From Ascaphus truei (Eukaryota; Chordata; Amphibia; Anura; Ascaphidae): 64,000 nucleotides of DNA. Positions 16,530 through 54,834 of this stretch are shown here, piece after piece. Both the position numbers and the translations under genes were made by a program. Each line of letters begins with the position of its first letter. Within the stretch, counting starts at the first letter, position 1. Under the pieces are notes generated by a model. That model ran no database searches and was not told the DNA's origin. It was given only the letters and a program-made list of their open reading frames with translations. Location: positions 146,718,166 to 146,782,165 of the forward strand of contig CM071570.1 of NCBI GenBank assembly GCA_036426205.1, in the 5' to 3' direction.

Positions 16530-16979
16530 GGGGGTCATGCAGTAAGCGGCGCAAAGGCACTTCTCGCCCGTTTTACGCCATAAATGCATACCCCAATTCA
16601 GTAAGGGGCGAAAACTTAGCACAAAGCAAAAAAAACGCCAAGTTGTTTGGCGATTTTTTTTTCTTCCACCATTGGCGCGGCGAAAAGGCGCTTTGCGCCG
16701 CAACTAGCCATTTTTTCAACCACGCTCAATTCTAGTAGTGGCGAGTAGCTTTGCGCCACTCTAGAATGGCGTTTTTCACGGCAATCCGGTTCGCCACAAA
16801 AAGTAGGCAAGTTGCTGGTGAGAGGCTGCGGATGAGGAGCGGAACGGCACTTAGAAAAAATTCAGGCCTTTTTCCTGCCTGTGATTGATGCCGGAGGTCT
16901 CTGGAGCTGATACCATTAATACCAGCACTGGAGCCCCCCGGCATGCATCCGAGGCAGGAAAAATGCATTTAAAGCCCAC

Positions 16980-24429: not shown

Positions 24430-24779
24430 TATGATGGGAAAAGGTATTTAATGAGTAGATCCAGAAACTTTCTGTCTGTCTCAAACATAAGAATATATCA
24501 CCACGTCTTATGACAGGGACCATACCCTCAACTCCTTTAAGGGTCTTTCCTGTTGGATCATTATTATGATATATTTTTTAAATGATTCAAAACTCCAGGA
24601 TTCATAGAACCTGAAGAAATATTCCTCTTGTGTTCTAGGAATCATGTTTCTATGTTCCTTTTAGTGCGTCCAATGTATCGCTAGTTGCACAGGCATTTTA
24701 AAACATATACGACTGAGCTGGAGTTACAATTAATATAGCTCTTTATTGCAAAAGTTTACCCATTTCTGCATGACTTCAT
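24430..24779 (-). pseudogene. PLE ORF fragment 3 (GIY-YIG endonuclease)
   Basis: Minus-strand piece of a Penelope-like protein. SYINCNSSSVVYVLKC, then RYIGRTKRNIE, then FLEHKRNI fit the GIY-YIG endonuclease that cuts target DNA for this class. The YIG triplets lie at 24669-24677. A C-terminal block RRGDIFLCLRQTESFWIYSL follows. There are at least three in-frame stops and a frameshift, so it is dead. The piece is cut at both ends by DNA elements. It joins fragment 2 across the Harbinger element (target duplication CAT) and fragment 4 across composite copy 1 (target duplication TAT), both in frame. Confidence 0.85.
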
Positions 24780-24802
24780 GGGCTCTATGCAGTAAGCGCC
24801 GA
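24780..24802 (+). repeat. Left terminal inverted repeat
   Basis: Two mismatches to the right repeat over 23 bases. Contains ATGCAGTAAGCGCCGA. Confidence 0.9.
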
Positions 24803-24824
24803 AAAAGCGCAATCGCCAAGTGTA

Positions 24825-25015
24825 CCTTATCGGCATGATTCTGCCGATTTTCCCTCTCCGTATGCAATAAGTGCCGAATTCCTTCCGAATCAAGCTGAAA
24901 ACATTTGCTCCCACTCTGCCGATGATTTGCCGATCACACACAGGTGTATCGGCTTGCATGGCGGGGTGGTGTTAGGTTCGCCAATGAAACTTCTTGCTGA
25001 ATCTGCCGAAGCAAG
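24825..25015. promoter_or_regulatory. Subterminal TGCCGA repeats, left
   Basis: At least six TGCCGA or TCGGCA copies in irregular spacing. The same motif is denser at the right end. These are candidate binding sites for the transposase or Myb-type protein (inference). Confidence 0.6.
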
Positions 25016-25270
25016 CATGTTTTGGATTGAGCGGCCCATTTAATGGCAGTGTGTATTTTTATTCATTCTCTGTGTTGTTGGGAGAGAGAGATAGAGACAC
25101 ACACAGACCTGGCCGATTTACATATTTCATATTGACTGAGAGAGTTGTTGTGTATTGTGAGAGGTTTGTCCTGTGTTGTTTTGTTAACATCTTTGTCTTG
25201 TTTTCACTTTGTAAGTGTTCAGTGCGATTGTCTTTAAATTTCTTTTCTGTTCTTTGTGAGTGCTAGAGGT

Positions 25271-26472
25271 ATGGCCGCAAGGCTTGGGAAGAGTGATGCT
25301 GGTGTGAGTGGTACTGGTAGTCGTGTGAGTACTCGTCTGAGTGAATGTAGGATTCAGGGGTGTGCTGTTGCTGTGAGTGTGAGTGGTGTTGCTGTGAGTG
25401 CGAGTGCTGCTGGTGGCTCTGTTGCTGGTGCTGCTGGGGTGTCTGGTACTGGTGCAGGTGGGGTGTCTGTTGCTGGTGCTGCTGGGGTGTCTGTTGCTGG
25501 TGCTGCTGGGGTGCCTGTTGCTGGTGCTGCTGGTGTGTCTGGTGGTGGGGTGGTTGCTGGTGGCCCGCTTTTGGAGTCACTTCCATTGGAAGAAGGAGAG
25601 TCCAGTCAGCAGCAGCCACGCTCTAGGCATGCACGTGTTCGGAAGAAACGTCTGGAGCGGCCACGTAATCCTCGGTTCAATGAAGAGGAAAACAGAGTTC
25701 TTGTCACAGGGATTTTGGTGCACTATGACTCTCTGTATGGCCATTTACTAGGTAAGTCTATCTTTGCATTGATAGTTCAAAGACATGTTATCCTAGGTCA
25801 TGTGAGATGTCTTAATATCAAAATATTATTCTATAATATCTATCAATAAAACTTAATTCTTACACACATATTCCTTCATGCTTTAGAACTACCATAACAA
25901 TCAGTCTAAAAATTTTGCCAAAGTTCATAAAATATTCATGCAAGCTTCCTTACATTTGTATGTTTCCACGTAAATGCTCATGTGGTACACATAGTCCACC
26001 TAAACCAGCATGTTTGGTATCTCTTGGAACAGGTAGCAGTTTAGGAAACTGATCGTTTTTCTAATAATAATTAACGTCATATATTTTGTATGTATTTCAA
26101 GGGCGGACAAGTTCAGCATCCAGAAATGTAATGTGGGATCAAATAACAGTGGCTGTATCTGCGTGTGGGAATCATGTCAGGGACCGTGCGAAAAAAATCC
26201 AAGCACAATGGATGCATGTTTCTGGCACTGGAGGTGGGTCGCCAGCACAAGCTATAATCTTAACTCCATTGGAGGAGCAGATGCGGGAAAAATTTCTTCC
26301 TGTCGTGGTGGAGGGTTTGCCATGGGACAGAGATATCGGAATTTATTCGGCGCCATTTCCACCAGGTGACAAATGTTACTGTACTAGGCGTGTCGTAGGT
26401 TACAGTTCTTATCTATATTTCTGCTGCTACTTATACTTTCTTCCCAATATAAGCATACCTACATATATATCT

Positions 26473-26536
<64 letters not shown>

Positions 26537-28430
26537 ATATATAATATGTATATGTGTGTGTTGTGTGTGTTGTGTGTGTTGTGTGTGTTGTGTGTGTTGT
26601 GTGTGTTTGGAAACATGTATTGGCTCAGCTATCGTGGATGACATCATTATGAGTAAACATACACAACTTGACCAGCATGAAGGGATTTTGTGTAATGATC
26701 TTCCAAATAACACACACTGCAACCTTCTACCTTACAAAGCATTCAACATGTTTGCCCTATAGTTGAAAGCTGAATGTATGCGTGAATCTTTGTACAAACA
26801 ATGGGTTAACATGCATAACCACAAAGCACATCAGCACTCATTGTTTGTCACAGTAATGTAAAACTTCGTTATACTGTGTCTGTGCACACAAATGCCTAAT
26901 TCACTTTTTCATGTATGTGTCGATACATATATATATCTCTATATCTTTATAATATATTATATCTAGTACTATTATAAATAAATTAGTCATAAGGTTGTCA
27001 CCTAGTAACAGGCCATTACTGCCTAATCAAGATCTTGTCATGGAAGATGTGCATTCAAAGCGCACATAAGTATTTGCACCAAACCACATTTCGTTTATGT
27101 TTAGTTAAGCTCTGTTTTTCGCTTCAATGTATTATATGAGAGCATAAATAGAACTGTACCATATGGTATTTAATTGTGTTCATATGTAGCTCACTTCATA
27201 TTTTTTTTTTCCGCTCATGTACCGGTGTGTGAAACCACAGCAATTATATAAGCACAGCAGAGAGGTGAGAGAGTGTGGTGGTCGGGGCACAACCATATCA
27301 CAGGGTCATGTAGGGTCAAGTCTTGTGGACGCTTACAGGTGGTAGAACCAATAAAAGGTCATGGTGGTGTCACGTCTTGGGGGAGGGACTACAGTTGTTA
27401 CAACTGACAGGTGAACATTTGAGGCGAACCACTGCATGTGTTGATGAGTGTCAGCCACATTAAGCTAAACCTGTTCTCTCTTAAACGTTCACACAGATCA
27501 CTAACATTCCTTCACTTTCCACAATTAGGTACGAATTATATGCAGAGTCAACTTTGCTGTCTGGTAGGATGTACATTATTATTGTTTAGATTACTACACA
27601 ACATATGCAGTGTATGTACAGAACACTTAATTTTACAACGCATTCCTGCATGAACATTGTATGTTGTATGGTGTTTAAAATAAATGTCCAATTAGGTTGA
27701 CATGTACACTTATGTTAAGATGGATAATGTACAGGTTGGCAGACCCATATCATTGTCATTTCGTCATGACATGATGATATTTATCCATACTCCTCCACTA
27801 CACAAACTTCAGTTTAATTATGACATGTTAATAAATTCTGATGTTATTCTTCTATATAGTTGCTCCTGCAGCTCTTGTGACACCGGACACTGAACTGTCT
27901 CTTCACCTGTTCTCATCAAGGTCATCATCAAGCATGGAAGGTAAGTGTATGAGGTAGCACATCTAATGTGTACATTTTGAATTCTCTTTGCCATGCAAAA
28001 TAAATGCCTTTCACATATAATGAAATTCACATCAGTTATTGTCACAGAAAGAGTAGTTGTTTCCTGATCACACATGTATTGTGTGTGTTGTAAACTATCA
28101 GCTTTGAGTTGTGAGGTAACAACAACCTTTCATTTCATTCTTCTTTCACACTGAGTCGAAACATCATTGTTCACTTCAAGCATCATCTTTTAATTGGACA
28201 CTTAAAATTATGGAAACATGTTATGTTTTCCACTATGAGAACCACTATCATTATAATGAAACAAGTGAAATTTCCATGGCATTTCATAATGTCTTTCTGT
28301 TATTTGTAGACCAGATGTTGCCACTCAAGGACAATTCACTCAATGTGACCATGAAGATGTTGACACTCCTGGATTAACCCAGCATTCAAGTCCTCCTGCT
28401 CGTGACACCTACTCAGCTTTGCGCTTCTGA
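25271..28430 (+). CDS. Myb/SANT-like Harbinger DNA-binding protein (4 exons)
   Basis: Spliced gene, predicted exons 25271-25751, 26102-26365, 27860-27940 and 28315-28430; all introns are phase 1 and GT-AG. It totals 313 codons plus stop. Residues 1-100 are a Val/Ala/Gly repeat region encoded by GCTGGTGCTGCTGG units. A basic stretch RKKRLERPR follows at 124-132. Residues 134 to about 210 form a trihelix/SANT-type domain: NPRFNEEENRVLV, YDSLYGHLLG, ASRNVMWDQITVAV and KKIQAQW. Such Myb-like partners are encoded by PIF/Harbinger elements; they bind DNA and carry the transposase to the nucleus (family knowledge). Exon 4 could use an acceptor 5 bases upstream, but the chosen one keeps the longer frame. 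The stop at 28428 is followed by coding-like sequence in another frame, so the C-terminus is probably truncated by a frameshift. Confidence 0.75.
26466..26605. repeat. (CT)n and (TGTGTGT)n microsatellites
   Basis: A CT run at 26466-26531 and a TGTGTGT run at 26554-26605, inside intron 2 of the Myb-like gene. Confidence 0.95.
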
Positions 28431-29530
28431 AGAACGAATCTTGGAAGAAAATCGTCGCCATTCAGACGATGATGTCATTGCTTGAAAGTGATATCACTGA
28501 ATTAAAATATGTGCATGAAAGGTCACAATACACAAATGTCCACAAATTCATAAAGTCATCCTCCAAGTTCCTAAAGAAATCCTAATGTAAACAGGACATT
28601 ACAAGCCACTATGTTCTCAATGTACACCAAGCAAATCAGTTGCGAATGACAGCAAGAGAACAACAATTCCACTTTACCACCCCATCTGAGGATGGATCTT
28701 TACATGCTGCCCTTTTTCCTCCAGAGTCTCAGTTCTTCATTCCCCGTTCTGGATGATACCGTACAGAGTAGGTGCAAGTTCTGTGCAGGTCCCTGTCCCA
28801 CCAACCGCTTACATCTGTTCACAAATCAGGAACGGACACCTACAAATGAGACACAAAAAAGAAAGTTAGGGCAACAATTACTCAACCAGCTTTTGGAAAA
28901 AGATTAAAACACCAAAACAGAAACTGGCTCCAACCTCAGTCTGCAATGTTTAGCAACTGGTTCAAAACTGGCCACAGGCCCACACCTCAGTGCCCCTGAA
29001 GTGCAACAGCCCACACCCAGTGCCACAGAAGTGCCACAGCCCCACCCGTGCCCCTGAATGCAACAGCCCACTCTCAGTGCCACTGAAGTGCAACAGCCAC
29101 ATCCCACCCCAGTGCCACTGAAGTCCACAGCCGCACCCCGTGCCCCTGAAGTGCAAAAGCCCACACCCATGCCCCTGAGTGCAACAGCCCACACCCAGTG
29201 CCCCTGAAGTGCACCAGCCCACACCCAGTGCCCCTGAGTGCAACAGCACACACACCCAGTGCCCTGAAGTCCAACAGCCCACCCCAGTGGCACTGATACC
29301 ACAGCCCACACTTAGTGTCACTGAAGTTCCACAGCCCACAACCTAGTCCAGTGAAGTGCAACACGCCCACACTAGTGCCACTGAAGTCCACAAGTCCCCA
29401 CCCAGTGCCACAGAACTGCCACAGGCCAGTACAATTATTCAGTTAAGGCTAGAGTAATTGACAGGGGAAAAGGAAACACACAGCCAACAACGAGCCTGTA
29501 ACTCGCTCTCAAAAGGATAACAAAATAAAT
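28431..29530 (+). pseudogene. Broken C-terminal part of the Myb-like gene
   Basis: Beyond the frame-1 stop, other frames read SEERILEENRRHSDDD and MMSLLESDITELKYVHERSQ, helix-forming stretches typical of the C-terminal dimerisation part of this family. They are separated by indels. A repeat-rich tail at 28925-29430 would encode Pro-rich repeats, ending with LALKRITK and a stop near 29527. Confidence 0.5.
28925..29430 (+). repeat. Approximately 30-bp minisatellite, Pro-rich if translated
   Basis: Irregular tandem units such as AGTGCAACAGCCCACACCCA and GTGCCCCTGAAGTG. Length variation of 1-2 bases between units destroys any single reading frame. Confidence 0.85.
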
Positions 29531-30587
29531 AATCACATTCACTTAATTTGTTTGGTGTCCTGGTGGTGTTTACTGCGGATATTTCATGCATAGTGTATGT
29601 TATTCATGTACAATGCTTGATAACATTCAAGTATGTCCTTGTACACATGAATGTTTTAGAAATGCCTCACTGACTGAAATAGCATATTTGAATAACATAT
29701 GAATATGTATTATAATCAGTTGATTAATGGTACACATTATTACCACACTGCCATGTTAAATAGAAGCTGACATTCACTTAGCTCTTGTTCAGATGAGATT
29801 TAGTGTGGGTTATTTTGGTAGTAATAGTCCATTTAATGCTAATTTTATTGACATACAACTTTAATTAAGTACCCATATAACAGCATACTTTTTTATGTAA
29901 TGTTTTCTGTGTCTTAACTCATTACTTACCTTAATCTTCTTTCATAGTTCATAATGTTGGCATGTGATCAGTTATGATTTTGGTTACAATAATAGATCTG
30001 TAGTGTGAATGAATATATCGTGTAGTCTCTCTGTATCGCTATGGTATATGTTTACACACACTACCACACAGTGTGGTGGTGTGTGTTGTATGTGTGTGTG
30101 TGTATATTTAACTGATAATATATATTATATATATATATATATATAGATATATATATAATATCAACCTGTTGTCCCAAACACAGGCCTTGTTTGAATGAGA
30201 TTAACATTTTAGGACACTTGCTAAAATTTATTGGTATCAGTATGATTAGCCCCTATTCACTAGCTGTATTTAACATTTGAATATGATTACAAAGCCCTAC
30301 TATCACACCTCCTCTGGCTTTAGTTTAGCCTCTCGTATATATATCATATATAATCAGAATGAACTTACAGTCCCTTCATGTCTCAAAAAGGCCTGTTTGC
30401 TGGTTAAATACAACTTGTACACAGCTGACTCAAATACTCCACCCAGTAATGTTTATAACTGTACTGTTAAGATAATTACAAAAGCCTGTTTCACCCAGGC
30501 CTTCAATGTAGCTATATATATATATATTATTATATATATATATATATTATATATATATATATATAAGTATATATATAGTTAATTATA
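29531..30587. other. AT-rich DNA, no gene seen
   Basis: Internal to the Harbinger element. It has TA microsatellites at about 30117-30160 and 30513-30575. No supportable exon. Confidence 0.5.
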
Positions 30588-30689
30588 CAGCTAAGCCCCC
30601 GTTATAAGCGGGTCTCGGGGTCCACCCCGAGACCACCGCGTTCTAACGGGGTCGCGGAAAAAATGGCCGCCGCGCTTTAGCGCATATTC

Positions 30690-30885
30690 AACCCGCGGGA
30701 CAGGAGATGGGAGCGGCAATGTCCCCCTCCGCTCCCCGCTTCCCCTGTCACTGCGGGCAGCCGCGGGGCAGGAGATGGGAGCGGGATTCGTCCCTCCTGT
30801 CCCCGCTCCCCCTGTCACCGCGTGGACAGGCCGCGGGCCATGGAGATGGGAGCCGGGGATGTCCCCTCCTGTCCCCGCTTCCCTC
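30690..30885. repeat. Approximately 67-bp GC-rich tandem repeat, 3 copies
   Basis: Unit begins GGAGATGGGAGC and contains GTCCCC and CCGCT blocks. Located near the left end of the mariner-type element. Confidence 0.75.
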
Positions 30886-31129
30886 ACCTCTGACACCACG
30901 ACCCCCGCTTAGCCCCCTTCACCTTAGCTGACAGCTCCCGGCAGGAGATGGATCCGGGGTATTCCCTTGGTCTCCGCTTACCTCAATCCCGCGCTGCCAT
31001 GGAGGTGGTAGCGGGGGGTTTCTCTCCCCACCGCTTCCTGCGCTCCGCTGCTGCGAGAGGAGGGGGGAGCGGGTGGTGGTGCTGGTCACGGCGTTTCCTC
31101 TGCTCCAGCCCCACCCCACCCCGTCTGTT

Positions 31130-31495
31130 TAGAGTGAGAAGTGTGTGTGTGTATGTATATATGGGGAGGAAGTTGTGGTATGTGGTATATGTGTTTGTGT
31201 ACTGGTGTGGTGTGTAGTGTTCGTGTGGGTAGGTAGTTCTGGAGTGTGTGGTAAGTGGTGTAAGTGTGTGTCAGGTGTGTGAGTGTCTGTGAGTGTCTGT
31301 GTGTGAGTGTGTGTGAGTGTGTGTGAGTGTGTGTGAGTGTGTGTGAGTGTGTGTGAGTGTGTGTGAGTGTCTGTAAGTGTGTGTAAGTGTGTGTGAGTGT
31401 CTGTGAGTGTGTAAGTGTGTGTAAGTGTGTGTGAGTGTGTGTGAGTGTGTGTGAGTGTCTGTGAGTGTCTGTGAGTGTGTGTGCGTAAGTGTACA
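31130..31495. repeat. (GTGTGA/GTGTCT)n microsatellite
   Basis: About 360 bases of GTGTGAGT with GTGTCTGT and GTGTAAGT variants. Confidence 0.95.
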
Positions 31496-31546
31496 GGCAA
31501 AATACATCTGTTAAAGTGCAGTTGTCTGTTTATTTCTATATAATAA

Positions 31547-32620
31547 TTGTGTGCAGTGTGCAGTGTGTGTGCAGTGTGTGTGCAATGTGTCAGTGTGTGC
31601 AGTGTGAGCAATGAGGAGTGTGTGTGCAGTGTGAGCAATGAGCAGTGTGTGTGCAGTGTGCAGTGTGTGTGCAGTGTGTCCAATGAGCAGTGTGTGTGCA
31701 GTGTGCAGTGTGTGTGCAGTGTGTGTGCAGTGTGTGTGCAGTGTGTGTGCAGTGTCAGTGTGTGCAGTGTGAGCAATGAGCAGTGTGTGTGCAGTGTGCA
31801 GTGTGAGCAATGAGCAGTGTGTGTGCAGTGTGCAGTGTGTGTGCAGTGTGTGTGCAGTGTGTCTGTGTGTGCAGTGTGAGCAATGAGCAGTGTGTGTGCA
31901 GTGTGCAGTGTGTGTTCAGTGTGTGCAGTGTGAGCAATGAGCAGTGTGTGTGCAGTGTGCAGTGTGTGTGCAGTGTGTCATTGTGTGCAGTGTGAGCAAT
32001 GAGCAGTGTGTGTGCAGTGTGTGTGCAGTGTCAGTGTGTGCAGTGTGCAGTGTGTGTGTAGTGTGTGTGTGCAGTGTGTGTGCAGTGTCAGTGTGTGCAG
32101 TGTGAGCAATGAGCAGTGTGTGTGCAGTGTGCAGTGTGTGTGCAGTGTGAGCAATGAGCAGTGTGTGTGCAGTGTGCAGTGTGTGTGCAGTGTGTCCAAT
32201 GAGCAGTGTGTGTGCAGTGTGCGGTGTGTGTGCAGTGTGTGTGCAGTGTGTGTGCAGTGTGTGTGCAGTGTGTCAGTGTGTGCAGTGTGAGCAATGAGCA
32301 GTGTGTGTGCAGTGTGTCAGTGTGTGCAGTGTGAGCAATGAGCAGTGTGTGTGCAGTGTCAGTGTGTGCAGTGTGCAGTGTGTGTGCAGTGTGTGTGCAG
32401 TGTGTGTGCAGTGTGTCAGTGTGTGCAGTGTGAGCAATGAGCAGTGTGTGTGCAGTGTGCAGTGTGTGTGCAGTGTGTCAGTGTGAGCAATGAGCAGTGT
32501 GTGTGCAGTGTGCAGTGTGTGTGCAGTGTGCAGTGTGTGTGCAGTGTGTGTGCAGTGTGGCAGTGTGAGCAATGAGCAGTGTGTGTGCAGTGAGTGTGTG
32601 CGTGTGTGCAGTGTGCAAAC
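31547..32620. repeat. TGTGCAG satellite with GAGCAATGAGCA spacer
   Basis: About 1.07 kb built from GTGTGTGCAGTGTGCA units and, every 30-100 bases, GTGAGCAATGAGCAGTG or GTCCAATGAGCAGTG. All Cys/Val- or His/Thr-rich frames here are repeat products. Confidence 0.95.
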
Positions 32621-32704
32621 GGGCGCCACGGGAAAACCGCGTTATAACCGAATCGCGGTATAACGAGGCACGTTATAACGGGGTTTAGCTGTATATAGAT
32701 AAAT

Positions 32705-32740
32705 ATATATGTTGATATATTTATATATATCTAATTATAG

Positions 32741-32779
<39 letters not shown>

Positions 32780-32935
32780 TATATATATATATATCTATGT
32801 ATATATATATATATCTATGTATATATCAACAGAGACTAACAGAGAAAGTCATAGAGAGAGAGAAACAGAGAGAGAAAGAGAGAGAAACAGAGAGAGAGAA
32901 AGGCAGAAAAAGATACAAAGAGAGAGATGTGTGTG
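32705..32935. repeat. (TA)n and (GAGA)n microsatellites
   Basis: TA-rich run 32705-32828, then AGAG/AAAC-rich run 32840-32930. Confidence 0.92.
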
Positions 32936-33278
32936 TGTGGTTAATTTTAGCTAAGTGTAAGCAGAAATCTGTTCATCCTAGCACTGTAGAAGATTTCACA
33001 CACATAGTTATTCTAATTAAAATAGTCAATTTGTTTTGCACATGTTGATTGACTAAGCCGAAAGTAAAGTTTCGATTCATGTGAAAAGACTGTATCTTAG
33101 ACAAAGAATTTCAGCCAATTATTGTAACACATTTCTTGTGGGAGAAAACCTGGGCATATAACAGTTAGGTTGTATTTTAACCTTGGAACAAACCGTGAAG
33201 ATAACATGTAACTATACACACATTCAGCAGACATCCGTATGCGTTCAACTTAACACAACGTACACTTGGAGAGAAGAA

Positions 33279-35010
33279 ATGGCAGAAGCTTCCACATTGC
33301 ACAGTCATCCACGTAAATCATACACATTTATGATTTATGAAGCAATCGAATCAACGGCAGAGAAAAGGGCAACAGTGGGTCAAATATATGACTTGATCCA
33401 AAAGAAATATCCATACTACCAAGAACCAGACAGACAAAGAAATTTTAAAACTTCTGTACGTTTCACTTTATCCGCAAATGAATGTTTTGAGTGTGTCCAT
33501 GATCGGCTAGATCAACGATATGGATGCTGGCATGTTGCGCCATCATTTAAACTTACCATGGAACATGGAACATATCTTCTGTTAAATAGCATATTTTTGC
33601 TTAATACCAGTTACATTGAAGCCGCACAGACTGTCGCGTCTGCTGATATACCTGCACCCTCCATTCATTAAGACCAGATGCAAGATGGACATAACTACTA
33701 TGATATGTATCAAAACTTATTTGGGCAATACGAATGTGGATGTGAAAACAACCAACAACTGTACGTACCTCCGGACGGCTTGTTTGAAGAAGCCACTGCA
33801 GATTCATATGACCGCCTCATGGAGATGTGTGTGATTCAGGATTCAACCGTTGCCTCAACCATGTTATGCCTTCCTGGAGCGAGCAGTTGCTGCCAAATCA
33901 GTTTTGACTTCTACAAGAATGGTAAATACAAATTTCGTTATGCCTTTACTCAAATTATATATGTGTACATTAATAATATACACCATTTGTTAGCCAAATT
34001 AGTGGATACAGGTTAACATTGCAGACAGCCTTACATGTAGCGTGCACAAAGACATTATTTCCTATAATAATATACTACACGACGAACCATTAGCACACAT
34101 TGGTGACGGAGTCCTAAATCATAGGTCTTATCGCTTTTAAAGTATCATTTCAACATGTTACACTAACTGTAACACACACACCTCATTTTTTAGCATTCAA
34201 CATATAAATACAAAGTGTCGGCCACATATGACGTGGGAACCTGGTAATGTCCCAAGGCGGCCTTAAAAAGGTTACCGATGCAAGCCCCAACCCCAACCGA
34301 CATGCGCGTGAAACAGTATTGGCTGTGCCCGTAGCTTATTGTTACGGTCAGTGCAGTGTGTCATGCGCGCGCGTCGGTGGGGCGGTGCGTGCACAGCGAT
34401 GGAGGCCAATGTTCATTCAGTGGGAGGGGTGTTTGCGTGCATTTCTCGGTGTCTTAATATGACGTCACATGTATTTTGTTCGCTCATTGGCTGATCGTCC
34501 ATTTTGGCCGTGGGCACACGTCCGTTTACAAAGTTTAGATATGTACGTGTGTAGAAGTGAATTTGTTTCGCTTCCATATCATAACTTTCAGCCATGGTAT
34601 GCATACTGCTAGCAGCACCATGGAGGGACATGTATTGAACGCACAGCGTACACATCGTTTAGCGCATGCGCTAAGACTTAGTCCACACATTCGTGACGTG
34701 CGCGCGCAACAGACGTTGTGCGCGCACATTATTATGTATACAGGCACCGGAACAAACATCTCAGTAGTAATGCCATTAGAAAAATAAGATATTTCTGTAA
34801 CTTTAGTTTTATCCTTGCAGTTTAAACATATACGTAACTTATGCGTGAATAGCCACAATCATATAGAAATGTGTTAAGCGTTATCATGCTGAAACATAGA
34901 TAAATGTGCCATCTTTGAACATCCTGTTTTTGCTGTATTTCACAGATGTTGAGGATGAATACATGGGACCAATTTATGATTTCAGATGGGCCAATCGTTA
35001 TATTAGATGA
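33279..35010 (+). CDS. Forkhead-like winged-helix protein (2 exons, one internal stop)
   Basis: Predicted exons 33279-33921 and 34946-35010 (GT-AG, phase 1). Residues 13-100 form a forkhead domain: SYTFMIYEAIESTAEKRATV (helix 1 and turn), QIYDLIQKKYPYY (helix 2), then TSVRFTLSANECFECV, the recognition helix, then a shortened wing with GCWHVAPSFK and TMEHGTYLLL. The canonical N-S-I-R-H-x-L-S pattern has T58 for Asn and F62 for His, so base contacts are probably altered. The start ATG at 33279 sits in GAAATGG about 120 bases after an ATATAA box. An in-frame TAA at codon 131 (33669-33671) follows the domain; the same frame stays open for 83 more codons up to the donor, so this is a nonsense mutation or a short isoform. 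No other PIF/Harbinger element with such a gene is known to me. The domain call is solid; function is unknown. Confidence 0.75.
34240..34735. other. GC-rich block in forkhead-like intron
   Basis: Lies between the two predicted exons. Contains a CRE octamer TGACGTCA (34461-34468), an inverted CCAAT motif shortly after, and a GC palindrome at about 34697-34728 with arms GTGCGCGCGCAAC and GTTGTGCGCGCAC. It may be an alternative promoter or a small inserted element. Confidence 0.4.
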
Positions 35011-36836
35011 TGGTGACGACTAGCAAACAACTATTATAATAAATATGTAACAATGCTTTCAATGATTGGTGCGCAGATTAACAATCACTACATAATGTTA
35101 TCCTATTGTGCAAATATTTACTATGCACTTAATTATCATAATGATGTTGCTAAGCACTGAATTTAGAACTTATAGTGATATTTTTTTCTTTTCTACTAAC
35201 ATTATATGTATTGCCATATGATATATGCAACCAACATTATCACTCAGCAAACACATTAATCTACTATATATTATAATCTCACGTGTGACTTGACAAAGAA
35301 TTGTAAATGCTACATAACAACTCGTCGACATTGTATCTGTACGTACACAATAACAATAGTGAGGTGATAGAAACTGTTTAGTCGTGTGAATGTTATATTA
35401 TCACCTAAGTTGTAGTGGTAACCTAACATGCATGAGCTAATGAATGTTAGGTAAAGATCATTAAACCATGAACTTTTGTGTGTACATTTAATTCACACGA
35501 GTAACTATAGTTTAGTGTTATTAGTAAACGTTCAACACATACATAGCTAAGTGAGGCCGATGATAAAAGCAACATTATTATGTTGGTAGAAATACATGCA
35601 TCACACCAAAACTACAACACACACAGTAGGTTGCTGAAATGTGTGCGTATGTAAATGTATACTTAATTTATGATCATATGTTGACAGTAGTTTAAAGGAT
35701 CATGATCATTTTGAATAAGTAAAGTGAATGAAATAAAAATTTTAATAACTACATTGTCATTGTGTTCAATGATTTAGGAAAAGTTGAGAATTCCAAAAAC
35801 TATACTTTGGAATAGTGTTAACATTTTGACAAATGTTAGATGAACGTCAAATCAACACACATATTTGACTTATTCATACACATGTGACAATGTAGTAATG
35901 AACATGAAGATGAAGTGAGAGAAGAACTAATCACATACATTGAAATGTTAATGATGTTTAACACATTAGGGTCTTTTCATACAAACATACATTGAGTGTT
36001 AACATCGCTCATGTGCATGAATAGATGTTCTCCTCCCATAATCACTAGCTGAGCAGGGTTTATCCCCTTCTCTCCCCCCACCCCTATATTCCATGAATGG
36101 ATGTTGTTACGTTGCCAAAATTACAAGTTATGTAATGTACATAATGATAACAAAACACACTGCACAATAACCACCAAGTGTAGATAAACGCACGGACACA
36201 ATACAGAAACGATATGTTTCTATTGTCACATCTTTTTCATTACGTTCTCTTTATACATCCTGTAACTACAGTATACCTGTATCGAGGTTTGCACATCTTA
36301 TGACAGATGTGAATTGAAATACATACCATGAGCAGTAATTGGAGTGATATACCTTGAAAAAGAAAACATGAATTAATATAAATCATTGTCATGACCTGTT
36401 CATTAAGGTAAGCAACAAACAGAAGTGACAATTTTGTATGTGATACGAAACAAAATCTATCATACGTCAAATATGATCTTAAATACACAATAGTGTACAA
36501 TACACACACATGTCACACTCCAAAAGAAACGTATGTAACCATACTGCACTAGCTATTGACTATCGACATAGTAGGTTCATTGTGTATGCATAACCAAAAG
36601 GAGAATGTACATAAAATATAGATTTAGTACACATTATTTCTTCACGTACACACAACAACTTTTATTGGTAAGAAGTATAATACAACCTGTTGATGAATGA
36701 CATACCGGTGCCACATGCAATTGTCCACACAGCAGAGAAGAGAAAGGTGTGAGAACCATATTCATCTGTTTCCTAAGTGAATGGTATTTGTACAAATGTA
36801 TTTATCATTACAATGAATTAATACATCTATGTAGTG
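35011..36836. other. AT-rich spacer between convergent genes
   Basis: 1.8 kb between the ends of the forkhead-like and transposase genes. No convincing exon or repeat was recognised. AATAAA at 35038-35043 could serve the forkhead-like transcript. Confidence 0.5.
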
Positions 36837-38160
36837 CTATGAACGTATATGTATTTGCATACATGAAAAATAGGTGTTTATGACATTCCGACGTGTCTCA
36901 ACACCACCGGCTGTTTGCTCAGTGTCAGCTGGTAAATTTAAGGGATGCTCCTCCTCCAAGTCCTGACATATGTCGGTTTGTACATAATTGCGGAGTGCCA
37001 GATTGTGCAAAATGCAACATGCAATGACAATATCTGACACTTTAGCAGGCTTATATTGCAATGCCCCCCCTGTTCTATCTAAACACCGAAATCGTGTTTT
37101 CAGAAGCCCAAATGTCCTCTCTATGACGGATCGGGTAGATATATGGGCAACATTGTACCTCTCCTCTGCTTCACATTGAGGGTTTGCCACAGGGGTCAAC
37201 AGCCACGGCCTAATTCCGTATCCTGAGTCACCTATAATCCATCGTGCCAAAAAATGAAACAAATTGTGTTAACATTATTACATTGAACAGTTCATATAAA
37301 AACTAGAGTTGTTTGTTAACACATCATAATATGTACTCACCCACCAGCCAACCAGGTCCAAAATAGCCTTCTTCGAAAGCATGGAAGACTGATGAGTTTC
37401 TCAGGATAGAGGAATCGTGACTGGAACCTGGGAATTTGGCTACCACATGCATAATCTTCATTGTGGCATCGTATACCACCTGTACATTCAGGGAATGGTA
37501 GTGCTTACGGTTGCGGTAAGCATGCTCACTCTGACTAGGTGGGTTCAAAGCAACATGGGTGCAATCTATTGCACCCATCACACATGGTATCCCTGCTATG
37601 GTATAAAAGCTATTCCTAACTTCCAGCCACTCTATGTGCTCTGTAGGAAAATGAATATAATTCCTAGCGCGTCTATTCAGTGCACATAGAAACTGGCTAA
37701 AGGCCCGCGAGAATGTAGATTGCGAGACCCCGCCCACTATGCCCACAGTTGTCTGGAATGACGCGGAAGCAAGATAATGTAATGAGCACAGCATTTTAAC
37801 AAGCCCAGGAACTGCACGACCTCTGGCTGTCACAAAATATAAATCTCCCTGTATCTCTTCATAAAGAGCTAAGATTACTGCTGAACTCAAACGATAGCGA
37901 CTTACAATCTGCTCCTCACTCATCCCATCTAACATGGTTCTCTCCCTGTACAAACGAGGACGAGGCACAACTTCTCTCCTCTCTCTTCTCCTCTCATCTC
38001 CTTGCCCTCGTCCTCTCCCTTGACCTCTCCCTCTCCTGTCTGTGTGCCTGTCCCTGTCACTGTCCCTGTCCCTGTCCCTTCCTTGGCCTGTGACATCCTC
38101 TCCATCAGCAAGCCTCTCGTCCAATAGAATCTTCCTCCGTCTCATAAACATTCGCATCAT
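36837..38160 (-). CDS. PIF/Harbinger DDE transposase (2 exons, intact)
   Basis: Exon 1 spans 38160-37341 and exon 2 spans 37231-36837, with a 109-bp intron (donor GTGAGT, acceptor TTATAG). The joined frame is 404 codons with no stop or shift. Residues 28-62 are an Arg/Asp/Gly-rich low-complexity stretch. A helical region with YRLSSAVILALYEEI follows, then TFSRAFSQFLCAL. The DDE_4 nuclease carries D199 (VMGAIDCTHVAL), D249 (FPGSSHDSSIL) and E311 (SVIERTFGLLKTRFRCLD); the second exon starts inside GDSGYGIRPWLLTP. These are the signature blocks of PIF/Harbinger transposases and of host HARBI1. It cuts and pastes its element, usually together with the Myb-like partner. A TATTTAAAG box lies about 45 bases upstream of the ATG. 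The gene converges with the forkhead-like gene. Confidence 0.9.
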
Positions 38161-39145
38161 TTTCAGGTCTGTAGCTATGAATGCGCAGGTAATTGCCCTC
38201 CTTTAAATACCTATGTGATGATGTCAGGTGACTTGCTGAAGTGCAAGGTGTTACATTAACATATCCAAGTTGTTCACTCCCAACGTGAATCCAGTACCAA
38301 TTAAAAGGATTATTTATGTGTGTTCACCAGGCAATCATGATATTTGAGAATGATGTAACGTTAATCTTTGTACAACCATTTATTGGCAAGTATTTCTGGA
38401 ATGTGTAATCATGTACCACTTCTGAACGCAACACTCAATCATCTAATTAGGATACAACCATGACATTGACGTTGAGAAACTACGTTGCAACGTGTAATTT
38501 GGCATGTTATTGTCACCTGTTCACATGACCTAATTGTACAGTGCATATGCATAATGAAATGCCATCAGGATACTTGCTATTGATTCAGTTTCAATCGTGT
38601 AAAAATGAGTAACTATTATAGATGTGTGTATAAGTTAGCATGAAGTGATTCTAATGCATTGTGTACAATGTAAACATGCAATGTTATTGAGTGTCCAATT
38701 GAAGACGTCATCAAAAGAGGGAGGTCACAAAGTACATGTAAATATGAAAAAAACAGCTACATTTACATTTGATCATGCGTTACACATTCAAAGCATTCTG
38801 TAATGTATACCAACATTACTATACGCTGGATCTGCTAGATGTGTGAAATGTGTTATATCATATAATAAATTGAAGCACAATTAAGTATCATGTTGGATAT
38901 GATGTGAGCTGCTCCTTTAAGAGTTGAGTATAGGATTTTCCCTTGACACATCATAACATTAAGACTAATGTGACACGCAAATCATCATAACATATAAAGG
39001 TACAATGTTATGCAAATAATAAACGTAAGGGGTGACACGATGAAGTGAATGACCTCGACACTGTAATGCCAAGCACATTTGTATTATGAGCAATAGAACG
39101 TAAACACTACTATAATGTTATAAGTCCCCGCTCCATTGACTCCAT
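38161..39145. other. 5' flank of transposase, no gene
   Basis: About 1 kb of AT-rich DNA between the transposase start and the subterminal repeats. It should contain the transposase promoter; only a TATA-like box near 38204-38212 is visible. Confidence 0.5.
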
Positions 39146-39159
39146 TGATGTAGAGATGA

Positions 39160-39470
39160 GGTTTTTTTTCTAAGTGCCGTCCCGGCAACCTTGCCGATCC
39201 TTCTCCCCTCCAACTTGCCAACTTTAGTTGGCTGGACCAATTGCCGATGAAATCTCCATTTCTGAGTGCCGATCAGCACCGATAAGCTGATCGGGGCTAC
39301 TTGAATACAGCCGATTTCAAAAAGTGCCGATAAGTGCCGATAAGTGGGTTATCCGCAGCCGCATGCCGATAAATTTTTATCGGCAAGAAAAACTGCCGAT
39401 TTTGAGCACTTATCGGTGCTTACTGAATCTCAAATCCAATTTTGGCGGGAAAATGCAGATAAAAGCCTTA
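39160..39470. promoter_or_regulatory. Subterminal TGCCGA repeats, right
   Basis: At least eight TGCCGAT/ATCGGCA motifs, several as GTGCCGATAAGTGCCGATAA. Mirrors the left end. Confidence 0.65.
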
Positions 39471-39493
39471 TCGGCGCTTACTGCATGAGGCCC
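39471..39493 (-). repeat. Right terminal inverted repeat
   Basis: Complement of GGGCCTCATGCAGTAAGCG plus CCGA. Followed by the CAT target duplication. Confidence 0.9.
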
Positions 39494-39754
39494 CATGTTT
39501 TTTGCTTCATTACTTTCCAAGAACTTGCAAGGTAAGTGTCTAGTTGGATTACACTTGTAGCATCCTAGAGGTTTGTCAATGATTCATAGTGGTTCATTTT
39601 GTTTGATTTCTATAGATGTGAGGTAGTTAGGGATGATTCTATCCTTTAGGTTTTTATTTTTCATATATGTGATAATCGGTCAGGAATTTCATTACATAGA
39701 ATTGCATCTTCTTTCAGAATACGCCAATGCTTTTTTAAGGTTTTTTGTATGTGT
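39494..39754 (-). pseudogene. PLE ORF fragment 2
   Basis: Minus strand. LKKHWRILKEDAILCNEIPD is the conserved linker block between RT and GIY-YIG domains of Penelope-like elements. It is followed by NLKDRIIPNYL-like and GCYKCNPTRHLPCKFLE stretches with Cys residues. It has several stops. It is bounded by the hAT-type element on one side and the Harbinger element on the other. Confidence 0.8.
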
Positions 39755-51833: not shown

Positions 51834-52440
51834 GACAAACAGCTTACTCTGGGGCTCCGCCGTTTGTCCGGGACTGTTAGAACACGGTCTTCTAGGGTAG
51901 GTTAAATGATGAGGCGTCCCGTACTGTTCCTTTAAACAGGCTATGCCTGGTTTATTCAGTCCTAGGCACTGAGACTGCCACAGTGCATACAACAGAAACA
52001 CATCAAAACAAAAGCTGCTCACCTGAGCGATAACTTAACTTAGATTTTTCCCTAACTCAGGGTGGAAGTGGCTTTTCCACTTCCAACAACAAAACAAGGT
52101 ACTTTTGCAGAATAAGACAAATGAACAGAATGATTGAACCTGTTCTCCCCTCTGTAGTTCAGCAGCCTTCCAGCCTCCAGGCTCTTGGAGAGAGGGGGAG
52201 AGCAAACAGGAAATCAGTCTTACATACCTGATTTCTAATTAGCATGACAGGTGACAGAAATCAGGCAGCAGACAAACTCTGGTCTGGATCTCTCATCCCT
52301 CAGTTCCAGCGCTTTCCAAACTGTGGGATGGAGTGCATGTATTATAAGGCTGCACTCCCAGGCCAAACAGGATAGAAACTGTTCAGTATCCTGGGAGCCC
52401 TATATATGGAATTTATTACCATCCCCTGGTTTCTGTCACA
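51831..52440 (-). mobile_element. 3' LTR of Gmr1-like element
   Basis: 610 bp. On the minus strand it starts TGTGACAGAAACC and ends GTTTGTCACA; the outer 7 bases are inverted repeats. A polypurine tract borders its start. The other LTR survives only as 28 bp at 56225-56252. The left flank is an (AT)n run, so no target duplication can be judged. Confidence 0.85.
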
Positions 52441-53679
52441 TATCCTCCCCCCCAGCTCAGACCTCGAGGGATGAGCGACCATGGATATTAGGGAGTGCAT
52501 CCTTGACAACCCGTCAGCATTGCCATGTTTGTGCCCTGACCTGTGTTCCACAGAAAATTTAAAGGGTTGTAGGCTTAGGAACCACCTGGTCACTCTAGCG
52601 TTCTTTTCCCTATTTTGACACATCCAGGTAAGGGGTGCATGATCTGTGACCAACCGGAATTTTCTCCCCAACAGGTAGTATTTGAGCGTCTCTACAGCCC
52701 ACTTTATTGCGAGACACTCTTTCTCTACTATGGAGTAATTTTTCTCCTGGGGATTTAGTTTCCTACTTAAATAAAGGATGGGGTGCTCCTCACCTTGAGA
52801 CTCCTGGGAGAGTACCGCCCCCAGCCCTACCTCAGATGCATCGGTTTGGACTACGAACTCTTTGGAGAAGTCAGGTGTGACCAACACTGGTTGGGCACAG
52901 AGAGCTTCTTTCAGGCTTCTAAAGGCCTGTTCGGTTTCGGGGGACCACTTTACCATTAGCAGTCCTCTTGCTTTTGTGAGGTCGGTTAGTGGGGTTGCCT
53001 TAGTTGCAAAATTGGGAATAAACTTTCTATAGTAGCCAATTAACCCCAAAAAGGTCCTTACTTGTTTTTTTGTAACTGGCCTTGGCCAATTTTGTATCGC
53101 CTCTACTTTGAGTGTTTGTGGTTTGAGTAACCCTCTACCAATAGAATACCCCAGATACTTGGCCTCCTCCAGACCAATAGTGCATTTAGCGGGGTTAGCA
53201 GTTAGTCCGGCAGACCGAACTGCGTCGAGCACAGCTTGGACCTTTGGAAGGTAGGACTGCCAATCTACACTATGGATTACCACATCATCTAGGTAGGCGG
53301 CAGCGTACCGAGCATGTGGTTTTAAAATTTTATCCATCATTCTTTGGAATGTGGCGGGAGCTCTATGTAAGCCAAAAGGCAGCACCTTATACTGAAAGAG
53401 GCCGTCTGGGGTTGAGAAGGCTGTTTTTTCTTTTGCCCTTTCTGTGAGGGGAACCTGCCAGTACCCTTTTGTTAGGTCTAGGGTTGTGAGATATCGGGCT
53501 TTGCCCAGTCTCTCTACAAGTTCATCCACCCTGGGCATAGGATAAATATCAAATTTTGACACCGCGTTTAGTTTCCGGTAGTCATTACAAAACCTTGTTG
53601 TACCGTCTGGCTTTGGGACTAAAACTATAGGGCTGTTCCACCCACTTTGGGATTCCTCAATTACGCCTAGTTTTAGCAT
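52342..53679 (-). pseudogene. Gmr1-like reverse transcriptase and RNase H
   Basis: A 445-codon open frame without internal stops. RT: MLKLGVIEESQSGWNSPIVL, LDLTKGYWQVPL, FGLHRAPATFQRMM and the catalytic AAAYLDDVVIH (YLDD at residues 129-132). RNase H: VVQTDASEVGLGAVLSQ (D279), YSIVEKECLAIKWA, LVTDHAPL (D345), HGNADGLSRM (D388). The frame starts at a Met inside the junction with the upstream integrase frame and runs about 98 bases into the LTR. Catalytic residues are intact, but expression would need a frameshift from the upstream frame. In this family RT lies downstream of integrase. Confidence 0.9.
52441..52456 (-). other. Polypurine tract
   Basis: Minus strand CTGGGGGGGAGGATA immediately before the LTR start. 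Confidence 0.8.
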
Positions 53680-54812
53680 TTTTTAACCTCTAAACTTATA
53701 GCCTCTCTCTTGGCCTCTGGGATTCGGTATGGTTTAAGGTTAACTCGGACCCCCGGTTCAGAGACTAGGTCATGTTCAATTACGCTAGTTCTACCTGGCT
53801 GTGTAGAGAAGACTTCTTTGTTTCTTCTCACTAAATTCTGGACCTCTCGTTTCTGATGAACGGACAGGGTTTCAGCTATGTTAACCTCTGGGTCAGTTTC
53901 TTGATTCTCTGACTGACCTGGGGGTACTAGGGTTAACAAGACTTCTCTATCTTTCCAGGGCTTGAGTAGGTTTATATGGTAAATTTGCTCAGGTTTCCTC
54001 CTACCTGGCTGTCTTACCTTATAATTGACTTCTCCCACTCTTTCCAAGACCTCATATGGCCCATGCCATTTAGCAAGGAATTTACTCTCCACGGTGGGAA
54101 CCAGAACTAGTACCCTATCACCTGGGAAAAAAATTCTGACCCTAGCACCCTTATTATACGTATTCCTCTGTGCTTCTTGAGCTTTCTCCATGTGTTCCCT
54201 CACTATGGGTAGGACTGCAGCAATGCGGTCCTGCATCTGGGCAACATGCTCTATTACACTTCTGTAAGGGGTAACCTCGTGTTCCCAAGTCTCTTTGGCT
54301 ATATCCAGTAAGCCCCTTGGGTGTCGGCCACACAATAGTTCAAATGGGGAGAAACCTGTGAATGATTGGGGAACTTCCCTAATGGCAAATAACAAGTATG
54401 GTAACAAACAATCCCAGTTTTTCCCATCCTTATCGACTGCCCGGCGTAACATGCTCTTTAAGGTTTTATTGAACCTTTCCACTAAACCATCTGTTTGTGG
54501 ATGATAGACTGAGGTTCTGAGATGCTTGATTTTTAGAAGTTTATATAGCTCTTTTGTTACTTGGGACATAAATGGTGTTCCCTGGTCAGATAAAATCTCT
54601 TTAGGAATTCCGACCCGGGAAAACAGAACTACTAACTCTTTTGCTATGTTTTTAGCAGAGGTGCTACGTAGGGGAACTGCCTCCGGATATTGGGTGGCAT
54701 AATCTAATATTACCAATAAATGCTGATGTCCCCTAGCAGACTTTATTAGGGGTCCTACTAGATTCATAGCAATCCGGTTAAATGGTACCACTATTATGGG
54801 AAGGGGTACCAA
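53673..54812 (-). pseudogene. Gmr1-like integrase (upstream of RT)
   Basis: A 379-codon open frame. The rve core has LVGPLIKSARGHQHLLVILD, EILSDQGTPF (D76) and HPQTDGLVERFN (E112, spacing 35). The first catalytic Asp is Asn (IAMNLVGP, residue 17), so strand transfer is probably lost. A GPY/F-like C-terminal part follows (LAKWHGPYEVLERVGEVNYK). After it come HDLVSEPGVRVN and KPYRIPEAKREAI, which in ordinary Gypsy elements sit just before RT. The frame ends at AAAAAATGCTAA, where one more A would continue into RT. Integrase before RT within a Ty3/Gypsy sequence is the hallmark of Gmr1-type elements (established knowledge). The N-terminal zinc finger is missing through a deletion. Confidence 0.9.
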
Positions 54813-54834
54813 TGGGTTAAAAAAAAAACATCAA

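Follow-up and report, generated by a model that had tools for sequence, protein, structure and literature searches.

A PIF/Harbinger transposon family in Ascaphus truei that carries a forkhead-like gene

We analysed a stretch of 64,000 nucleotides from the amphibian Ascaphus truei (GenBank assembly GCA_036426205.1, contig CM071570.1, positions 146,718,166 to 146,782,165 of the forward strand), hereafter called the window, in whose numbering all coordinates are given. The window contains a PIF/Harbinger element with three genes, encoding a Myb-like protein, a forkhead-like protein and a transposase, and this element is a member of a high-copy family in the genome. The explanation that best covers all of the observations is that a captured FOX gene has turned into the third gene of the element and probably encodes a DNA-binding regulator of it, a reading that we hold with reasonable confidence from sequence comparisons. 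An initial annotation of the window, made from its sequence alone, had already proposed a forkhead-like gene inside a Harbinger element, possibly captured from the host.

To our knowledge, animal DNA transposons generally encode hardly more than the functions required for their own mobility, and where domestication occurs, it is usually the host that takes over a transposon gene. The family described here suggests the reverse direction, by which a developmental transcription-factor gene of the host would now be a durable part of a transposon family. One may ask whether the forkhead protein serves to activate the element, takes part in its excision and insertion, protects it from silencing or changes the host, and annotators should be aware that a forkhead match in a genome of this kind may belong to a transposon. 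According to PMC9179366, the Myb-like protein of known Harbinger elements binds to both the transposase and the inverted ends. The vertebrate PIF/Harbinger elements of fish (PMC9179366) and of the newt Pleurodeles (PMC5741667) likewise combine a DDE transposase, a Myb/SANT-like partner, inverted ends and a short flank duplication, whereas the element of the window adds a third, forkhead-like gene between the two. Our search of the open-licence literature did not turn up any description of a forkhead gene carried by a Harbinger element; Repbase reports lay outside this search.

The forkhead-like gene of the window

The forkhead-like gene is located at 33279-33907 on the plus strand, within the terminal repeats of the element (24780-39493) and between the Myb-like gene and the transposase, whose PF13873 and PF13359 matches agree with the arrangement given by the initial annotation. 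A Pfam profile search with the first 130 codons (33279-33668) confirmed the predicted forkhead domain, returning PF00250 with E=7.4e-19 and 68.1 bits, above the gathering score of 27 bits for this family. The match covers residues 10-91 (33306-33551) and profile positions 2-84 of 88, and four other members of the element family scored 74.7, 83.2, 92.3 and 79.6 bits against the same profile. When the window's forkhead was compared with the PDB by phmmer, FOXG1, FOXC2, an HNF-3/fork head chain and FOXL2 were matched at 42.9-43.8 bits, and the printed alignments place two extra residues ahead of helix 3 relative to known FOX domains.

The frame of the window copy is broken, both by an in-frame stop (33669-33671), which the initial annotation had not mentioned, and by a 10-nt deletion at 33861. 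The gene had also been described as consisting of two exons and reaching 35010, and this part of the description does not hold: in five intact relatives from the window's subfamily (L083-L087) the gene has a single exon, and every frame stops inside the first of the two proposed exons, at a point corresponding to about 33905-33907, ahead of the proposed intron. The frame of one of these relatives, L084, comprises 212 residues. The intact protein of about 212 amino acids has an N-terminal forkhead domain, and its tail matches no Pfam family. An AlphaFold2 model of the protein, obtained from single-sequence input, had a pLDDT of 39 and was too poor for use, and codon-usage scoring was uninformative. 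About 264 bases downstream of the gene (34361-34624) have no counterpart in L083, reflecting either an insertion in the window or a deletion in L083; they are included in a CpG-rich stretch (34190-34760) with an observed-to-expected CpG ratio of 1.17. In L083, a second occurrence of the gene's initial 49 bases lies downstream of the first (bases 1734-1781 in gene orientation), which points to a tandem forkhead duplicate.

Linkage of the three genes across the genome

When the window's forkhead protein was searched against the genome (2.82 Gb), at least 150 places were found, and the 150 places scored, the window's own among them, all showed 86-100% identity across almost the whole query. By hand count, 108 of these 150 had no stop inside the match and 42 had at least one. 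The place counts for the forkhead and the Myb gene refer to the best 150 scored, and the true copy number of the forkhead is higher. For the analysis of linkage, separate searches provided 150 forkhead places, 103 places for the first exon of the transposase and 150 for the Myb gene. The window's own transposase was not among the transposase matches listed, and since the lists are incomplete, places without a listed partner say little.

Among the matches listed, 12 transposase-forkhead pairs were less than 30 kb apart, and in all 12 the two genes had opposite orientations, the forkhead lying 3' of the transposase. Ten of them were within 5 kb, the chance expectation within 6 kb being 0.016, and five shared a spacing of 4.01-4.10 kb, the value for the window being 4.06 kb. 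Likewise, all 16 Myb-forkhead pairs less than 20 kb apart in these lists (0.08 expected; the window's own included) showed both genes in the same orientation, Myb lying upstream of the forkhead. Furthermore, we took six transposase copies for which no partner had been listed and read one slice of 701 nt each at the predicted spot; the forkhead was present in three of the six.

A genome search with the Pfam Forkhead profile afforded 12,894 first-look candidates, the best 150 of which were scored. Among these, 21 reached 107.8-140.7 bits and look like host FOX genes, and the other 129 scored 73-94 bits, many of them with open frames of about 200-240 residues. We read 10 kb around each of 20 forkhead places of the family type, all with high scores and located on large contigs, and detected transposase kin at six and Myb kin at five of these loci, with constant order and strand wherever they were present; L028 holds both. 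The loci are diverged from the window, with 33-47% identity in the forkhead domain where it was found, and the transposase pieces of diverged copies are 58-69% identical to the window's.

We are nearly certain from these results that the forkhead gene is a regular third component of the element. The initial annotation had left room for a private insertion, that is, for a host FOX gene or pseudogene inserted into one Harbinger copy, and a separate nested mobile element would be a variant of the same idea; indeed, an apparent nested element (30595-32692) adjoins the gene. Other copies, however, carry the gene at the equivalent site, and a scan for nested ends around it gave 7 candidates, as against 1-8 in 12 shuffles. 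With at least 150 genomic matches and constant linkage to both transposase and Myb, we regard a private insertion or nested element as ruled out, its probability being close to nil.

Outside this genome, queries with forkheads of the window's subfamily gave 36 and 2 candidates in the protein database, none of which passed; the query is diverged and the search needs shared five-residue words, so that absence elsewhere is not implied. Amphibian proteins are represented in this database, but as no listed match of the transposase exceeded 55% identity, those of the species itself are probably absent from it. The viral contigs searched yielded no match.

Origin of the gene and changes in the recognition helix

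We compared 45 element forkheads with 21 host FOX domains in a tree which, though built from few columns, with some forks unresolved and host FOX genes sampled in part, separated all of the element sequences from the rest by a branch supported at 99/96. The window's forkhead groups with that of copy L036 (99/94). The element clade is apart from all 21 sampled host FOX domains in this few-column tree and groups with no single FOX class there. In the PDB, L009, a copy with the usual recognition helix, is matched best by FOXL2 (88.5 bits) and FOXC2 (85.8 bits), which presumably belong to class I of the FOX classification, and these matches point to a source gene that was probably of class I. The single element clade, set against the host FOX domains, and the matches of L009 to FOXL2 and FOXC2 thus support the proposed capture of a host gene, and a one-time capture by an ancestral element appears very likely. 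The gene has kept its frame and its domain in many copies as the element family split into several subfamilies.

The element proteins share the forkhead domain with FOX factors such as FOXL2, FOXC2, FOXA and FOXG1, and part of the family retains the usual recognition helix, but they form a clade of their own and two subfamilies have lost contact residues. In the recognition helix 3 of FOX proteins, Asn and His are the usual DNA contacts. In the window copy (residues 56-67, 33444-33479, plus strand), these contacts are replaced by Thr58 and Phe62, as correctly read by the initial annotation, and the same pair occurs in all seven members of the window's subfamily (the window, L036 and L083-L087), so that it is not a private accident of one copy. 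Recognition helices were scored in 48 of 50 copies; Asn/His was found in 23 and Asn/Arg in 15. Since so many keep Asn/His, the ancestral element forkhead probably had the canonical helix, and two subfamilies would have altered it differently, to Thr/Phe and to Asn/Arg. The suggestion of a probably new DNA target may hold for the subfamilies with these changed helices, but not for the others, which keep Asn and His.

Selection on the forkhead-like gene

We then estimated the ratio of nonsynonymous to synonymous substitution rates (dN/dS). In the window's subfamily (A), the forkhead gene had a median pairwise dN/dS of 0.43 (10 pairs, range 0.23-1.44) among the five intact copies L083-L087, which had been picked for their open frames, and the first exon of the transposase had a median of 0.50 (36 pairs of nine copies, range 0.34-1.37). 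Between subfamilies, the forkhead domain gave values of 0.27-0.38 in five comparisons with dS below 1.5 and of 0.13-0.26 in three comparisons with dS of 2.0-2.5, and three more were not computable. The frames of L083 and L036 are both open at a nucleotide divergence of 23%; random mutation simulated to the same divergence introduced a mean of 6.6 stops, and zero stops were obtained in 0.25% of 400 runs. These data suggest that selection has kept the gene working in the subfamily of the window and among its closest relatives, which favours a function, and subfamily B gives no such sign. The dN/dS comparison envisaged by the initial annotation has a divided outcome, with constraint in the window's subfamily and no significant constraint in the 20 copies of subfamily B, in which the shared nonsynonymous and synonymous changes numbered 69:28, as compared with a neutral ratio of 3.06:1 (p=0.35).

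This result for subfamily B, together with the choice of open frames for the estimate in subfamily A, weighs against a working third gene, as do several other observations. The singletons of subfamily B showed a nonsynonymous to synonymous count of 120:38, and 156 pairs from 24 long frames of this subfamily gave a median dN/dS of 0.65 (range 0.3-1.74); decay after insertion accounts for the singletons but not wholly for the shared changes. In the window, the forkhead is broken and the transposase is open, so this copy persists without a working forkhead of its own. No forkhead was found at locus C12256 between the transposase and Myb genes, which are about 3 kb apart there, indicating that some copies have lost the gene. 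As for the three slices beside transposase copies in which the forkhead was not present, the expected slot contained Myb-intron DNA in L082 and had no match in L080, and the only match of the L078 slice was to sequence just downstream of the forkhead. Finally, 12 of the 20 ten-kb loci had no match to the window's Myb or transposase queries, and in nine of these 12 the domain stretch carries a stop; two of the partnerless loci, L016 and L027, can be aligned to L028 across 1.8 and 2.4 kb surrounding the forkhead.

The broken window copy, the absence of the gene from some copies and the lack of significant constraint in subfamily B would fit a mere passenger, in which host FOX coding DNA was acquired by transduplication and amplified without function. 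Turmoil-1 of C. elegans provides a precedent, as it is likewise an animal Harbinger element that has taken up host coding sequence, and its description (PMC2572040) reports fragments within the inverted repeats and a captured domain that, according to the authors, is not under purifying selection. In contrast, the family of the window carries a whole gene with a frame open in many copies. The dN/dS of subfamily A is no higher than that of the transposase, the divergence between the two open frames of L083 and L036 would be expected to produce several stops, and the gene is present across subfamilies in one order and strand, all of which argues against a passenger and makes it, in our judgement, improbable. 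Whereas capture of host fragments by an animal Harbinger element is known from Turmoil-1, this precedent does not extend to an entire gene under selection. ISL2EU is likewise a Harbinger-like element with a second, unrelated protein, but the extra protein is a YqaJ exonuclease and not a transcription-factor domain, as described in PMC9179366.

Possible roles of the forkhead protein

Under the preferred reading of a captured FOX gene as third element gene, an ancestral element would have taken up a FOX gene once, and the encoded protein would act at the promoters or the subterminal DNA of the element, either alone or with the Myb-like protein. It might thereby regulate the element's promoters, help at its ends or counter silencing. 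DNA binding is proposed because the forkhead domain is present, and an action on the element because the linkage has lasted and the helix has changed; a recognition helix altered along with the subfamily is what would be expected if each protein binds its own element. On this basis, we lean slightly towards the forkhead protein being a DNA-binding regulator of the element. A more specific and clearly more tentative version is that of an element-carried, pioneer-type transcription factor, which would open the element's chromatin or hold it open, with a helix diversified to the sites of each subfamily. If this were true, a selfish element would have domesticated a host developmental regulator.

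Plant transposons also encode accessory regulators, such as VANC of VANDAL21, TnpA of En/Spm and mudrB of MuDR, which are DNA-binding or anti-silencing proteins encoded beside the transposase; the element forkhead is likened to them by role alone, and no sequence kinship is claimed.

Alternatively, the protein might act on the host and not on the element: by imitating a FOX factor, it could change the host's gene expression, chromatin or silencing in germ cells or early embryos and so help the element to spread. The 23 scored copies that keep the Asn/His helix could indeed still bind ordinary FOX sites, and the selection on the domain, as seen in subfamily A and the kin closest to it, would be explained as well. 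However, the Thr/Phe and Asn/Arg contact changes in two subfamilies fit coevolution with sites of the element better, although this is a matter of argument only, and we consider action on the host rather unlikely.

Structure of the PIF/Harbinger element

The left end of the element lies 8.5 kb upstream of the forkhead gene. The terminal inverted repeats of the window copy, located at 24780-24802 (plus strand) and 39471-39493 (minus strand, with the element end), pair by eye without gaps and with 3 mismatches in 23 positions. They are flanked by the same three bases, CAT, at 24777-24779 and 39494-39496, as read from the sequence. The target duplication of PIF/Harbinger elements is 3 bp and usually TWA, which the flanks of the window copy do not match; the three bases that follow the position of 39493 in seven other copies, seen on the right side only, are TTA in two, TAA in three and TAT in two. 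To place the right end, we used a query running about 700 bases past 39493, and the similarity of seven of eight other copies broke off at 39493 (four copies), 39496, 39497 and 39508 although the fetched DNA continued, the DNA of the eighth copy ending at 39297. The bases after the right end differ among copies. In two copies of subfamily B, similarity starts at a sequence related to the terminal inverted repeat, and their right ends were not located.

Subterminal TGCCGA/GCCGAT repeats occupy 24829-25117 on the left and 39192-39475 on the right; on either strand, 14 of the window's 20 occurrences of TGCCGA and 16 of its 22 occurrences of GCCGAT fall in these two end regions. Exons 1 (25271-25751) and 2 (26102-26365) of the Myb-like gene, both open and on the plus strand, matched PF13873 (Myb_DNA-bind_5) with E=3.5e-08 after they were joined. 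Putative exons 3-4 of this gene (27860-27940 and from 28310, within 27860-28379, plus strand) are based on splice-site reading alone and their frame is uncertain. The transposase, encoded on the minus strand by exon 1 (37341-38160) and exon 2 (36837-37231), is an uninterrupted protein of 404 amino acids that matched PF13359 (DDE_Tnp_4) with E=2.2e-40. It gave 373 protein matches at E<=0.001, and the 120 listed are mostly named HARBI1; among these, the best-scoring relative is from the caecilian Geotrypetes with 54% identity, and the highest identity listed is 55%.

The 4-mer composition of the spacer between the forkhead gene and the transposase correlates with that of two other element spacers (r 0.88-0.90) more closely than with that of three flank stretches (r 0.55-0.63). 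The FOX site GTAAACA occurs 6 times in the element spacers, versus 2.6 (standard deviation 1.7) in shuffles. Between the Myb and forkhead genes, the apparent nested insertion at 30595-32692, read from the sequence, has inverted ends of its own (CGTTATAA-type) and is filled with satellite-like GTGTGTGCAGT repeats.

Other features of the window

Elsewhere in the window, ATGCAGTAAG motifs at 16537 and 59270 resemble the element ends and are possibly the ends of related elements, and 16754-16860, which is 75% identical to the right subterminal region, may likewise be the end of a related element. A reverse-transcriptase fragment is found at 2244-2765 (RVT_1, E=1.8e-14), and long Ty3/gypsy-like reverse transcriptase/RNase H and integrase frames are located at 52342-54830 on the minus strand.
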